From a virus, in IMG/VR virus record IMGVR_UViG_3300046010_005374, positions 1 to 31,055 of that record: DNA of 31,055 bases, one strand, 5' to 3'. Position 1 is the first letter of the stretch. The number at the start of each line of letters is the position of its first letter. This document shows positions 3,228 through 8,840 of this stretch, in pieces. The position numbers were made by a program, and so were the translations under genes. The notes beneath the pieces are model-generated. The model did not search any database and was not told the origin of the DNA. It was given only the letters and a program-made list of their open reading frames with translations.

Positions 3228-3989
3228 TTAAAAAAATTCGGAACCCTCGTTTGAATCTGGTAACTTGTTAAATTCAGGGCAGATTTTTTTAGCAGAGCAG
3301 TATTTACACCAGTTTCCACGGCTAAACTGGCGTTCACTTTTGAACAAAATCTGCCTATACCCTTTTTCAGCTGCTCTAACTAGCAGCGTATACCATATCT
3401 CTAGTTCTTGCGCTGTGTAAGATACTGCGGTGATGGCGTTTTTAATCCGTGGCTGGACAATAGTAACCTCGACACTCTCTAACGGATTGTTACTAGTCGC
3501 CCATAGAGCTGCTGCATAGTATCCAAGCTGGGGATTTTCTTGTGCTTTAACTGCAACTTTTCCATATTTTAAATCAATAATTTTCCCATGCCATTGCCCG
3601 TTAAGTTTCCCAGTCATTGCAACATCAGCAGTGCCAAACATTTTTAAATCTTTGTTTAGTATTAATTGGGCTTCTATTCTAATACTTGGAGGTTGGTCAA
3701 AGTTCTGGGTTTTACGCTTGACGCACATTGTATAGGTCTTAACATGTTCAATCATTTCCTCATCATCAGAAACAATCTGTGTATTCTCACCTTTAACCCA
3801 AGCAAGCAAATGTTTTTCTGCCAGCTCATGGGCTTTAGTTCCCTCTAGTGCATAACTAGAGGTATCAGGTTGTGGACACTCTAACCCTAAGCCAACCGAG
3901 CCAGGGCAATTCATCCATCTTAACGAGCTACTTGCAGAGCATAGGGCATGCCCTCTTAAGGCATGCCCCTCTGTGTTATCAACAGACAT
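3228..3989 (-). CDS. DUF2800 Cas4/RecB-like exonuclease with four-cysteine cluster
   Basis: 253 residues of the PD-(D/E)XK nuclease superfamily, DUF2800 type. Landmarks in order: SSLRWMNCPGS (Cys28), EGTKAHELAE with His54, GTADVAM with Asp122, IIDLKYGKVAV giving the D139-x-K141 catalytic pair, NPQLGYYAAAL (the conserved Q..Y motif), and CKYCSAKKICPE with Cys228, Cys231 and Cys237. One N-terminal cysteine plus three C-terminal cysteines is the iron-sulphur layout of Cas4 and AddB nucleases. The protein likely acts as a DNA end-processing exonuclease in phage recombination or replication. It is somewhat shorter than many DUF2800 proteins but keeps all core motifs. Its start overlaps the stop of the single-strand-binding gene (TAATG). 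Confidence 0.85.
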   Translation of the reverse strand: MSVDNTEGHALRGHALCSASSSLRWMNCPGSVGLGLECPQPDTSSYALEGTKAHELAEKHLLAWVKGENTQIVSDDEEMIEHVKTYTMCVKRKTQNFDQPPSIRIEAQLILNKDLKMFGTADVAMTGKLNGQWHGKIIDLKYGKVAVKAQENPQLGYYAAALWATSNNPLESVEVTIVQPRIKNAITAVSYTAQELEIWYTLLVRAAEKGYRQILFKSERQFSRGNWCKYCSAKKICPEFNKLPDSNEGSEFF

Positions 3990-4564
3990 TAAAAGTTTGT
4001 CCTATCTTCTGATTCAACAGAGCTAAACTGGTCTTCAGGTCTACCAGCTCCACCGCCGAAAGCTTCCCCGCCTCCAATTATTTGTACGTTTTTTAATCCC
4101 CAAGCAACACCTTTATTACCTGGTTTTTTATATGCGTACACGTTTAGAGATAGCCTTGCATATTGACCGCCGTATACTTCTTCAGGGCTGTCAATTACAA
4201 CCTTTGGATTAGGTCCAACGATTGCAGGCCTGTTGTCTGATTTTGCTTTTAAAATCCAGTTTCCTGCATACTCCCCGCCTTTCTCATCTCCATCTCTTAG
4301 TGGTGGGTTTTTTAAGTCGTGGATACTCTCATATTCATCGTCAAACATATCTATCATGGCTTTATTAGCCGCCGCTTCTAATTCAGAAATATCCGCACTT
4401 TTAGGTATTAACAATATTGTTTCATACTTATCACTTGGATAGTTACCGCCTGTATTTCGCTCTAATAAATGCGGATATGATAAACGCCCTTTAGGGGTGA
4501 TTAATGTATCTGGTATTTTCTTTGCAACTTCTGCGGTTGTTGTCGGTTTTTTCGAGTTTTTCAT
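3989..4564 (-). CDS. DUF2815 single-strand DNA-binding protein
   Basis: 191 residues. The diagnostic segment LITPKGRLSYPHLLERN is followed by KYETILLIPK, LKNPPLRDGDEK, VYGGQYARLSLNVYAY and GVAWGLKNVQII, and the protein ends in a Gly-rich, acidic tail. This is the phage DUF2815 pattern, an OB-fold single-strand DNA-binding family; the acidic tail is typical of proteins that recruit partners. It is sandwiched between a helicase and a Cas4-like nuclease, the common arrangement for this family. AGGA lies before the ATG. Confidence 0.85.
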   Translation of the reverse strand: MKNSKKPTTTAEVAKKIPDTLITPKGRLSYPHLLERNTGGNYPSDKYETILLIPKSADISELEAAANKAMIDMFDDEYESIHDLKNPPLRDGDEKGGEYAGNWILKAKSDNRPAIVGPNPKVVIDSPEEVYGGQYARLSLNVYAYKKPGNKGVAWGLKNVQIIGGGEAFGGGAGRPEDQFSSVESEDRTNF

Positions 4565-4583
4565 TTTATTTTCCTATTTTAAG

Positions 4584-5834
4584 TTATTCTCCCAAAACTT
4601 TTGTAATGTCTCTTTGCTTCCTCATAACTGCACCAGTTATGGTGTCGTCTAAGGAATCAGGTATCACTAAGTAATGAGATCTTGTTACGTTTGTTTGAGA
4701 GATTCTATAACATCTCCCTTCTGCTTGTTCGTTAGTGGATGGAACCCAATCACATTCAACAAACACCACGTTACTAGCGGCTGTTAGTGTAATGCCAGTA
4801 CTAGCAGCGTGAAGGCTTGCAATAAATACTTGTATGTCACCTTTTTGAAATCTATCAACGCACTCTTGTCTTAGCTCAATATCAGTCTCGCCATTTACAA
4901 CGCAGCAACTAACGCCGCTTAAGCCTTTTACTAAACCTGTTATAACGTCTTTATGGTGTGCAAACACAACACAGTTTTTCACCTCGTTAAGGAGCGTTTT
5001 AATATAGGCGCAAGCGGCTCCAATCTTTGCAATGCCATGCGCTCGCCATGCTGACTTAACGTCTTCTGGTAATTCTTTACTAAAATCTAATTCAATATCT
5101 ATATCATCCCACGCTGGGAACCCGTCTAAGGGAACCTTCATTCTTACAAGCTCTGGAAGCTGCCCAACCGTTTCACTTCTCTTTCGCCGTATCATAAACC
5201 TATCGCGGCAAATGCGCCCTAAAACTTCCAAGTTTTTAGACTTGTTATAATTAACTCCCCATGGGGTGGCATCTCGAACGCAATACCTGTCTAGGTATTC
5301 TCTCTTTTTACCAAAGTCTATAGGTGATAATTTACTAAACAATGCAAAGCCTTCTATAGCTCTGCCATTGGGCAAAGGTGTTCCGGTAATTGCAATTCTT
5401 TTTTTTGCTTTTTTCCAATAACCATCAAGGCATGCTTTTGTTCTAGCGCTATCAGGGGTTTTAAGATAGTGCGCCTCGTCTAGTACAAGCAAGCAGCTAT
5501 AGACACCATCAGAATATTTAGTAGCAAACTCATAGCTCATGATTAGGACGTCACCTTTTAAAAGGTCTTCCATCTTCATGCAGATAGTGCAGGTTCTATC
5601 TAATCCACTCCACTTTTTAAACTCTCGTTTCCAATTCTCTCTTAAACTTGCGGGACAAATTACTATTATTTTTTTGCAGCTTAATTTGTCAGATGCAATT
5701 ATTACCTGACAAGTTTTTCCAGCTCCTGGATGGTCAGCCAATAAAACATCTTTATATTTATTGCATATTAAATCGATTCCTTTAACTTGGTAATCAAATA
5801 ACTTTGCCGCCGGTTTTTGCTGTGTGTCATTCAT
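4584..5834 (-). CDS. SNF2-family DEAH helicase/translocase
   Basis: About 416 residues from the ATG at 5834. SF2 motifs in order: LFDYQVKGIDLI (Q-motif region), DHPGAGKT (Walker A), VICPASLRENW (Ia), LVLDEAH (Walker B, DEAH), ITGTPLPNG (III), then the second RecA lobe with FAHHKD, ASLHAASTGITLTAAS (V) and QAEGRCYRISQ (VI). This is a compact SNF2-type DNA translocase, resembling single-domain phage versions and SMARCAL1-type annealing helicases. It probably remodels forks or recombination intermediates. An upstream GTG at 5912 would add 26 residues (MPQCASSWQV...), but it falls in the divergent control region, so I prefer the ATG; neither start has a strong ribosome site. It appears to be the first gene of the leftward operon. 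Confidence 0.85.
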   Translation of the reverse strand: MNDTQQKPAAKLFDYQVKGIDLICNKYKDVLLADHPGAGKTCQVIIASDKLSCKKIIVICPASLRENWKREFKKWSGLDRTCTICMKMEDLLKGDVLIMSYEFATKYSDGVYSCLLVLDEAHYLKTPDSARTKACLDGYWKKAKKRIAITGTPLPNGRAIEGFALFSKLSPIDFGKKREYLDRYCVRDATPWGVNYNKSKNLEVLGRICRDRFMIRRKRSETVGQLPELVRMKVPLDGFPAWDDIDIELDFSKELPEDVKSAWRAHGIAKIGAACAYIKTLLNEVKNCVVFAHHKDVITGLVKGLSGVSCCVVNGETDIELRQECVDRFQKGDIQVFIASLHAASTGITLTAASNVVFVECDWVPSTNEQAEGRCYRISQTNVTRSHYLVIPDSLDDTITGAVMRKQRDITKVLGE

Positions 5835-5893
5835 GCGAGTTTTTACGAGTTTAAAAAGTTTTTTCAAATAAAAAATAATTTTTACTTGCCAAC

Positions 5894-5920
5894 TACTAGC
5901 ACACTGTGGCACAACTAGTA
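5894..5920. promoter_or_regulatory. Divergent control region dyad
   Basis: TACTAG at 5894-5899 and CTAGTA at 5915-5920 form a 6-bp inverted repeat around a 15-base centre that itself holds CACACTGTG. It sits in the 116-bp gap (5835-5950) between leftward and rightward transcription units. The flanks are AT-rich on the helicase side and carry a short direct repeat, GCGAGTTT and ACGAGTTT, at about 5835-5852. I could not define a convincing -35/-10 pair on either strand. The location fits an operator for the adjacent ribbon-helix-helix protein or for the XRE protein. Confidence 0.35.
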
Positions 5921-6162: not shown

Positions 6163-8082
6163 ATGATTAAAGGCGATTCAGTCTTAGATTATGCCACGGC
6201 GTATATCAATGCAGGTTTCCAAGTTCACCCATGCTATCCACCAACGGATTCAGATCCAAAACGTGCCGGTAAAGTTCCACGTTTAGTTTCTTGGCAGAAG
6301 CAACATCTATCAATCGAGCAGTTTAAAGGCATCTATCGCCCTAATGATAATCTTGGTGTTGTCATGGGTAAGTCTAACGGGCTTGTCTGTGTTGATATAG
6401 ACCCAAGAAACGGGGGCAATCATTGGTATGAGCAAAACTTAGAGCGCCTTGGGAACCCTGTTATTGAAAAGACAGGCTCAGGCGGGCTTCATCTTTACTA
6501 CCGCTATCCACCAAACGCTGATTACCTACGCTCTAGGAATGGTTATGCGCCTGGTGTTGATATCCTTGCAGACGGTGGAAAACAGGTTGTAACAGCGCCT
6601 TCAATACACCCTTCAAGCAAGCCTTATGTTTTTGACGATGCTAGAAATTTACTTGATGCTCTACTTGATGCCGACATCTTACCTGATTGGCTTACTAGTG
6701 AACTAATCGCAGAGCCAACAATTCCTCAGCACGTTGATAGCCCTAAATCTGACCCTGATTCTTTTTACTTAGAGCAGGCAATAGAAGCTATCAAAAAGTT
6801 TGACCCTGCGATACAAGGCCATGCTGGCGATCAGCAAACTCTTAAGGCTGCCTCCCTTCTTAGGTCTTTTGGTTTAACAGAGCAAACAGCGTTTATAATT
6901 CTTAAGGATTACTACAACCCAAGGTGTCAGCCTCGATGGGACGATAAAGAATTACGCATTAAAGTTGCTAATGCTTACAAGTATGCAAAGGAGCCAGCGG
7001 GCTTAAAATTGCCTGAGAATCAATTCTCTGAAGTTACCCCTGCTAGTATGTCAATACCCTCTGAATCTCCTGCCGTTGCCCCGTCTAAGGCTCCTGTTAC
7101 CCTATCGCTGCAAGATTTCTTAGCAACTCCTTTTCACAAGAAAGAGCATTATATCGGTCCATTTGTAAAACAGGGGATTAGTTTGGTGTATGCTGCCACG
7201 GGTGTAGGTAAAACGCATTTTTGCATTGGGTTAGCGTTTGCTATTGCGTCAGGTTCTGATTTCCTACGCTGGAAGTGTGAGCAAAAAGCACGGGTGCTCT
7301 ACATCGATGGCGAGCTACCCGGACATTACCTTAAAAGCATGATAGAGCCGCTATATAACGCCACAGAGGATAAAAACATACACCTAGATATAATCACCCC
7401 AGATACCCAACACGAAGCTATGATGCCAAACCTTGGAACTCCTGAAGGGCAAGCGTCAATTCAAACAGCGATTGAAAATGCTGATGTTATATTTGTAGAT
7501 AATTTATCAACCCTTATCAGGTCAGGTAAAGAGAATGAAGCAGAATATTGGCTGCCTGTCCAGAGTTGGTTCTTGAAGCTTAGACGTATGGGTAAGAGCG
7601 TCATATTTGTCCACCACGCGGGTAAAGGAGAGGCGGGTAGCTTCAGGGGTACTTCTAAGATTACGGATGCTCTTGACCTATCTGTGCAGCTTAGAAGCCC
7701 TACAGGGCACAAGGCTGAAGATGGGTGTGTATTTGAGGTGAGGTTTCCAAAGTATCGGCACTTTCGTAAGGGGGATGCAACCGAGTTTCAAGCAACATAT
7801 GTTAACACAGATTTTGGCGCGCCTTATTGGACTTGCTCGGAACTTGAAGAGATAAATTCAAACAAGGTTATAGAATTACATAATGAGGGGCTTAAGCCAA
7901 AAGAGATTATGGAAGAAACCGGCTTATCAAAGAAAACCGTTTACAAGTGGCTCAAGCAACTTCCTCAAGAAGAGCCAAGTGATTATTCAAAAGCTATGAA
8001 AGCACTCAAAGCTAAAAAGCCAACAAAACCAACAAAGGCTTTAAAGAAAATTGACCCTAAAACTGATGATCTCGATTTTTAA
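6163..8082 (+). CDS. Prim-pol / RecA-like ATPase fusion, probable replication initiator
   Basis: 639 residues, two enzymes in one chain. Residues about 8-180 form a bifunctional primase-polymerase domain: LVCVDIDPRNGG with Asp78 and Asp80 as metal ligands, GSGGLHLYYRYP with His110, and GVDILADGGKQVV with Asp133. Residues about 315-545 are a RepA/RecA-type hexameric helicase ATPase: VYAATGVGKTHF (Walker A, Lys350, Thr351), VIFVDNLSTL (Walker B, Asp446) and SVIFVHHAGKGEAGSFRGTS. Residues about 562-600 are a helix-turn-helix (LKPKEIMEETGLSKKTVYKW), then a lysine-rich tail. It could synthesise primers, unwind DNA and bind a site with one protein, as in phage and plasmid primase-helicases. AAAAGG lies nine bases before the ATG. 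The iteron array starts eleven bases after its stop. Confidence 0.88.
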   Translation: MIKGDSVLDYATAYINAGFQVHPCYPPTDSDPKRAGKVPRLVSWQKQHLSIEQFKGIYRPNDNLGVVMGKSNGLVCVDIDPRNGGNHWYEQNLERLGNPVIEKTGSGGLHLYYRYPPNADYLRSRNGYAPGVDILADGGKQVVTAPSIHPSSKPYVFDDARNLLDALLDADILPDWLTSELIAEPTIPQHVDSPKSDPDSFYLEQAIEAIKKFDPAIQGHAGDQQTLKAASLLRSFGLTEQTAFIILKDYYNPRCQPRWDDKELRIKVANAYKYAKEPAGLKLPENQFSEVTPASMSIPSESPAVAPSKAPVTLSLQDFLATPFHKKEHYIGPFVKQGISLVYAATGVGKTHFCIGLAFAIASGSDFLRWKCEQKARVLYIDGELPGHYLKSMIEPLYNATEDKNIHLDIITPDTQHEAMMPNLGTPEGQASIQTAIENADVIFVDNLSTLIRSGKENEAEYWLPVQSWFLKLRRMGKSVIFVHHAGKGEAGSFRGTSKITDALDLSVQLRSPTGHKAEDGCVFEVRFPKYRHFRKGDATEFQATYVNTDFGAPYWTCSELEEINSNKVIELHNEGLKPKEIMEETGLSKKTVYKWLKQLPQEEPSDYSKAMKALKAKKPTKPTKALKKIDPKTDDLDF

Positions 8083-8092
8083 ATTTTTGCCC

Positions 8093-8139
8093 GTTTGTCA
8101 CCCCTCACCCTTATAAGATAAGGGTGACAGGTGACAAAC
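8093..8139. repeat. 22-bp near-perfect inverted repeat with 3-base loop
   Basis: The left arm 8093-8114 and right arm 8118-8139 pair at 20 of 22 positions around the loop AAG; the inner ten pairs (TCACCCTTAT / ATAAGGGTGA) are perfect. Each arm contains iteron-like sequence. No T-run follows on either strand, so a simple terminator is unlikely. It may be an extruded cruciform or a double binding site at the left edge of the array. Confidence 0.6.
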
Positions 8140-8325
8140 TAAGGGTTTTTGTCACCCCAGGGGTGACAAAGGGGTGACAGCAGCTTTCAACACGTTGATT
8201 TTATTAGAAAAGCTTGTCACCCCTGGGGTGACAAAGGGGTGAAAAAGTTGTCACCCCATGCTAAAAAAAAAGTAGCAAAAAATTACCGTTTGTCACCCCT
8301 ATTTTTTATGTTTTTTTGAGGTGAC
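8093..8325. repeat. Iteron array of GTCACCCC / GGGGTGAC
   Basis: Eight exact copies of one octamer. GTCACCCC starts at 8097, 8151, 8216, 8250 and 8292; the reverse complement GGGGTGAC starts at 8160, 8171 and 8225. Degenerate copies lie near 8122, 8130, 8236 and 8319. Most exact copies carry TT or TTT before GTCACCCC (or AA after GGGGTGAC). Two 29-base units, at 8149-8177 and 8214-8242, share the same arrangement (TTGTCACCCC, one variable base, GGGGTGACAA, A, GGGGTGA) and differ only at the central base, A or T. Spacing is irregular and orientation mixed, so this is a protein-binding array, not CRISPR. Confidence 0.75.
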
Positions 8326-8340
8326 ACATCCTCATTTTTT
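8317..8340 (+). terminator. Weak intrinsic terminator candidate
   Basis: TGAGG at 8317-8321 pairs with CCTCA at 8330-8334 around an eight-base loop, followed at once by six Ts (8335-8340). The stem is only five pairs, and it overlaps the last iteron-like copy, so it may instead be part of the origin. It would end transcripts reading on from the prim-pol gene. Confidence 0.3.
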
Positions 8341-8431
8341 AACGATGTGGATCACTAGTTTGTTAAATTAAATCTTGCTACATAATCAGAATTATATTAC
8401 TCTTAAGAGGTAGTACCTTATATCGTTGTTT

Positions 8432-8540: not shown

Positions 8541-8840
8541 ATGGTATTTCAACCAGGTCAATCAGGTAACCCAGGCGGTCGCCAAAAGAAAGATACAACA
8601 ATCATCGATCTTGCACGTGCTGCAAGCCCAGAGGCCATTGCTAAAATAATAGAACTAGCCAAGAACTCCTCAGACCCTAAGATACAAATCCAGGCATGCC
8701 GTGAAATCCTAGACCGTGGCTACGGCAAAGCAGCCCAAGCCGTTGAACTATCAGGAGCAGAAGGTGAGCCGCTAAAAATCGGCATCACCTTCAACTTAAA
8801 AGACACTAAAAAACAACTACCACCTAGTGACACAGATTGA
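8541..8840 (+). CDS. DUF5681 protein, probable small terminase subunit
   Basis: 99 residues beginning FQPGQSGNPGGRQKKD, the signature of the DUF5681 family, followed by a helical segment (ASPEAIAKIIELAKNSSDPK, then ACREILDRGYGKAAQ). Members lie directly upstream of the terminase large subunit in many phages and are commonly taken as DNA-recognition (small terminase) subunits. Here the stop overlaps the TerL start by 14 bases. No clear ribosome site precedes the ATG at 8541. It is the first late gene, so the packaging site it recognises may be close, perhaps in the adjacent non-coding region. Confidence 0.8.
   Translation: MVFQPGQSGNPGGRQKKDTTIIDLARAASPEAIAKIIELAKNSSDPKIQIQACREILDRGYGKAAQAVELSGAEGEPLKIGITFNLKDTKKQLPPSDTD

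Follow-up and report, generated by a model that had tools for sequence, protein, structure and literature searches.

The repeat array at positions 8096–8326 of the window (the whole stretch of DNA analysed here, 31,055 nucleotides, which is one whole IMG/VR record) is very probably the iteron part of a phage replication origin, bound, as comparison of sequences suggests, by the C-terminal helix-turn-helix (HTH) domain of the protein encoded upstream of it. The octamer GTCACCCC occurs in eight exact copies between 8097 and 8299, five on the plus strand and three on the minus strand, and has no exact copy in the rest of the window; in 100 dinucleotide-preserving shuffles, the mean was 0.37 octamers per window and the maximum was three. 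When up to two mismatches to TGTCACCCC are allowed, 12 sites in both orientations are found from 8096 to 8326, of which eight are exact (8096+, 8150+, 8160-, 8171-, 8215+, 8225-, 8249+, and 8291+) and four are degenerate, with one or two mismatches (8121-, 8128-, 8236-, and 8318-), so that the dense octamer cluster claimed in an earlier note on this DNA is borne out. Two blocks of the form TTGTCACCCC(A/T)GGGGTGACAA are near-perfect palindromes (8148–8170 and 8214–8234, 65 bp apart). The array is intergenic, not lying inside any O-like HTH_36 gene (see below), and since the primase gene ends at 8082, it does begin about 11 bases after the stop codon, as had been claimed. The AT-rich DNA that the same note placed behind the array is also present, in a moderate form: the stretch 8260..8410, which takes in the rightmost part of the array plus the DNA beyond it, is a candidate melting region in which most 30-base windows have 70–77% AT (8260–8409), against about 59% genome-wide. 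A literature search for the octamer returned no phage-origin paper among the matches listed.

A short hairpin with a T run behind it at 8317..8334 on the plus strand, which overlaps the last degenerate iteron, is a possible terminator of the replication operon according to a consensus scan. That the entire array is a set of transcription-terminating RNA hairpins at the end of this operon is hardly credible: the two palindromes can form hairpins, and four terminator-like matches were found in 700 bases where 0.8 would be expected, but on the coding strand the array region contains only one of these, the sites occur in both orientations, many of them without a hairpin, and no Rfam match was found.

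The proposed initiator gene (6163..8082, plus strand) encodes 639 amino acids, in which Pfam recognised a Prim-Pol domain (PF09250, residues 11–176, 3e-22), an AAA_25 ATPase (residues 317–490, 2.1e-20), and an HTH_23 domain (residues 569–599, 2.1e-6), in full agreement with the earlier description of a prim-pol/ATPase with a C-terminal helix-turn-helix. The ATPase resembles RepA of RSF1010 (1g8y, E=0.00028), so that the helicase part is an AAA_25/RepA-like ATPase and not an SF3 helicase of the pRN1 type, and no TOPRIM primase match was found in the protein, its primase being the Prim-Pol domain. The presumed DNA-recognition helix is SKKTVYKWL (residues 589–597, codons at 7927..7953 on the plus strand), whose register was set from sequence pattern, not from structure; it is the sole helix of its pattern inside a recognised HTH domain in the window and carries Lys at both basic positions. 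An AlphaFold model of the initiator, built on an alignment of 10 sequences, had a mean pLDDT of 41.9 and was not used. Beyond one identical record, no close relatives of this initiator were found, and none in cellular genomes; therefore, its own pairing of word and helix cannot be traced across variants. A second, O-like initiator in the window was considered and rejected, because the HTH_36 profile matched none of its 301 ORFs.

Gene content on each side places the array between a replication module on the left and a packaging module on the right. To the left, divergent genes on the minus strand (3228..5912) encode an exonuclease, a ssDNA-binding protein, and a SNF2-type helicase, and complete the replication module. 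To the right follow a DUF5681 protein (8541..8840, plus strand; Pfam 8.4e-7), which is a presumed small terminase with a weak match to the small-terminase family phrog_2538 (0.00046) and a neighbour thought to lie outside the origin, and then the large terminase, portal, and head genes. A second record, L008, shares 15.5 kb of identical sequence with the window, the array included; it extends the window 2183 bases leftward (L008:1-2183) with small reverse-strand genes, so the left end of the window is not the end of a complete genome.

The possible incompleteness of the genome bears on the idea that the array serves to control replication or incompatibility, again as a target of the initiator, with the melting origin located elsewhere. 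The satellite phage P4 has such a second iteron region (crr) besides its ori. We consider this rather unlikely, and leave it a small chance because the genome may be incomplete; against it, no second array was found in the window or in the overlapping record L008, and AT-rich DNA borders the array.

The origin reading draws most of its support from distant relatives of the initiator gene. Phage MW202867, whose gene order resembles that of the window, has a relative at 24% identity, and RepA-type primase-helicases that are similar over the ATPase are encoded by the Roseobacter phages CRP-811, CRP-821, CRP-823, and CRP-831 (the Prim-Pol model had no match in the two CRP proteins tested). In each of these phages, an array lies directly behind the stop codon, and its word is unlike that of the window: TGGGACA, CTACAAA (TTTGTAG), or GTATAAA (TTTATAC). 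The paper describing the CRP phages mentions neither iterons nor repeats (PMC12629253). Two scans of IMG/VR yielded 150 more loci, of which the 140 with a usable 3' flank were counted, and when an array was defined as one 7-mer present at least four times within 260 nt past the stop, 131/140 had one. A control stretch inside the same genes held at least four copies in 1/140, and this number was reached in any of 30 shuffles at only 8/140 loci. In the 140-locus set, the median distance from the stop to the first copy is 3 nt, and about 25 different iteron words occur across the relatives. According to the earlier note, an origin would be refuted if relatives lacked the octamers at this place; the place proved to be conserved and the octamer did not, so that this test cannot be used as it was worded. 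GC skew, a check suggested in the note, gave a broad minimum about 3.5 kb off the array in the window, where the reversal of gene direction at 5.9 kb is a confounder, and no consistent relation between skew and array was seen in the complete relatives MW202867, CRP-811, and CRP-821.

Two loci among these relatives deserve separate mention. Phage CRP-810 (L248:4924-5722) has a related Prim-Pol gene with no array within 260 nt past its stop, and an 800-base stretch without annotated genes behind it. At L390:4406-4735, 12 copies of GGGTACC iterons were found in 260 nt, and the C-terminus of this relative is unlike that of the rest of the family.

Within both families of relatives examined, the iteron word follows the C-terminal domain and not the ATPase core. 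In partial Mantel tests, the word was correlated with the C-terminal 110 amino acids when the core was controlled (partial r 0.42, p=0.0005 in the CRP family; 0.52, p=0.0005 in the MW202867 family) but not with the core when the C-terminus was controlled (-0.03, p=0.76, and -0.23, p=1.0, respectively), although the relatives share descent, for which these permutation tests and the Fisher test given below correct only partly. A comparison of CRP-811/823 with CRP-821/831 agrees with this: DNA identity is 91–98% in the 400 columns upstream, drops mostly to 57–80% across a segment that starts about 350 nt ahead of the stop and ends about 250 nt past it, and is 86–97% again farther on. The divergent segment encodes the C-terminal domain and contains the array, whose word changes from CTACAAA to GTATAAA. 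The two types thus differ as if a cassette of binding domain plus iterons had been exchanged as one. Such an exchange would be possible because the DNA-binding domain is encoded at the very end of the gene, immediately before its sites, so that both could be swapped together. A host factor reading GTCACCCC was judged less likely, because the word changes among relatives with the C-terminus of the initiator.

The same pairing would be left unexplained by a role as operator or terminator only. An array of operators, through which the HTH protein or a phage repressor would act on the late operon or on its own gene, with no origin function, would suit a position between a replication gene and late genes, and initiators often autoregulate. 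We regard it as quite unlikely, since there are twelve sites over 230 bp, all 3' of the gene, a simple scan detected no sigma-70-like promoter inside the array, and arrays are kept beside initiators in phages in which the next genes differ. By contrast, an iteron origin with the C-terminal HTH of the initiator as the candidate binder, the central proposal of the earlier note, is strongly supported by comparison, through the frequency of arrays behind the relatives and the tracking of the C-terminal domain by the word; as far as the compared sequences go, the array, its position, its conservation with a changing word, and its covariation with the C-terminus are all directly visible.

The word itself offers a further line of evidence. 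GTCACC arrays are widespread, as a pattern scan of IMG/VR revealed. In a set defined by at least four clustered copies of GTCACCC, to which the array of the window was added, 77 of the 94 distinct arrays overlap a gene with an N-terminus from a single family, identified as HTH_36 in the two members tested; these genes resemble initiators of the lambda O type that carry their origin internally. As this set had been chosen by word, a second sample of O-like HTH_36 genes was picked by protein, regardless of word. Proteins with Arg at one position of the recognition helix had GTCAC arrays in 7/7 cases, against 0/64 for other residues (Fisher 7.5e-10), while Asn at the same position went with TGCACC in 42/50; the single protein with Lys there had a word different from GTCAC. 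The helices SKRSVMRHI and SKRSVMNHI differ in that one residue. Named phages agree in part, with TGCACCA in SfV (RSVMN) and GGTGACA in Gordonia phage DatBoi (RTVQR). Among the O-like genes at L411-L490 and L401-L410, Arg occurs with GTCAC, Asn or Ser with TGCACC, and Gly or Gln with CCCGCA.

These arrays also bear on whether the repeats are a pac site for the DUF5681 small terminase, which is encoded 200 bp downstream of the array. The gene after the array is indeed the presumed small terminase, a GTCACC array at L132:10545-10591 overlaps the start of a small-terminase-like ORF preceding a large-terminase-like gene, and many of the O-like genes with arrays directly precede terminase genes. However, O-like initiator genes contain many of the GTCACC arrays, the iteron word changes together with the primase C-terminus, and the terminase genes of MW202867, CRP-811, and CRP-821 are about 2–5 kb from the array, which in these phages comes after the primase. 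Because the array keeps with the primase at such a distance from the terminase genes, the packaging site that the earlier note offered as an alternative found no support, and we hold it to be highly improbable.

Returning to the reading of the array by the initiator, two further proteins pair a comparable helix with this word. Within the window's family, GTCAC iterons occur in L326 alone, with 10 copies in 330 nt, and its helix, SARTFLRSW, is the sole one of window-like pattern among 96 distinct C-termini. L198 encodes a Prim-Pol/DUF3987 protein with a C-terminal HTH, whose Prim-Pol and HTH_23 matches fall below the Pfam cut-offs, and its helix SKRTLQRYL stands beside GTCACCCC arrays. Because the helices of L326, of L198, and of the O-like proteins pair with GTCAC words, it is likely, we infer, that SKKTVYKWL reads the array of the window. 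It counts against this that O-like proteins with GTCAC arrays carry Arg at the position occupied by Lys in the window helix, and that the one O-like protein with Lys there has another word. We would give roughly even chances to the broader proposal that unrelated initiator families (Prim-Pol/RepA-like, Prim-Pol/DUF3987, and O-like HTH_36) share a helix rule, by which a basic residue at a fixed position of the recognition helix leads to GTCAC and Asn to TGCACC, and that phages swap a 3'-terminal origin cassette, perhaps escaping origin-directed interference or replication competition.

At L198:650-950, the GTCACCCC arrays form a large inverted repeat with an AT-rich centre directly upstream of the gene, a compact candidate origin in a phage contig of 34% GC. 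GTCACC arrays were also seen beside Api92-like (DUF1281_C) genes at L009:1348-1482, L010:5059-5193, and L092:928-1053, those of L009 and L010 being built of GGGGTGAC-5-GTCACCCC palindromes; no initiator was recognised near these three arrays.

For the array of the window, we infer a sequence of binding, oligomerisation, melting, and priming. The C-terminal HTH, through the helix SKKTVYKWL, would bind the GTCACCCC iterons, several copies of the initiator would gather on the array, the RepA-like ATPase would open and then unwind the adjoining AT-rich DNA, and the Prim-Pol domain would lay the first primers. For a broad set of marine and uncultivated phages, a likely replication origin can thereby be assigned from sequence alone. 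The pairing of about 25 iteron words with variable DNA-binding domains constitutes a natural library, which makes the choice and change of origin by initiators directly testable. In addition, the association of Arg or Asn at one helix position with GTCACC or TGCACC could provide a rule that helps to predict origins in many phage genomes.

The general kind of origin is already known, with precedents in pRN1, P4 alpha, RSF1010, and the PLE RepA. ORF904 of the crenarchaeal plasmid pRN1 (PMC4234260) likewise joins a Prim-Pol of the archaeo-eukaryotic type, a helicase, and a C-terminal DNA-binding domain in one protein, and an essential element resembling an origin lies immediately 3' of the ORF904 gene, as does the proposed origin of the window, but the pRN1 helicase is of the SF3 type and a large stem-loop takes the place of iterons. 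The P4 alpha protein (PMC4234260) binds origin repeats by means of a winged-helix domain and then unwinds and primes, as proposed here, with a TOPRIM-type primase where the window has a Prim-Pol and a RepA-like AAA_25 ATPase; the binding domain is a winged helix in both pRN1 and P4, and HTH_23 of unconfirmed winged-helix fold in the window. The oriV of RSF1010 (PMC4234260) is similar in having an iteron origin, a RepA-type helicase, and a dedicated primase, but RepC, RepA, and RepB' are separate there, whereas the window fuses these tasks in one protein. In the PLE RepA system, the DNA-binding domain and the iterons covary, as here, and have been exchanged together, as we propose for the CRP phages, and cognate pairing of domain and iteron has been demonstrated experimentally (PMC8263062). 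The PLE initiator is, however, a different one, with a RepA_N DNA-binding domain and a conserved C-terminal domain, and its ori occupies a noncoding region of its own and not the DNA directly behind the binding domain. The lambda-type origin within the O gene (PMC3985674) resembles that of the window in that the iterons adjoin the codons of the DNA-binding domain, and many O-like HTH_36 genes in IMG/VR carry the GTCACC word, but there the iterons lie within the coding sequence and the encoded protein lacks both primase and helicase. The present case differs from these precedents in that iterons are combined with a single protein of fused Prim-Pol/RepA-like/HTH architecture, in that one gene family is followed by a large set of different words and, as our data hint, in a recognition rule shared with O-like initiators.
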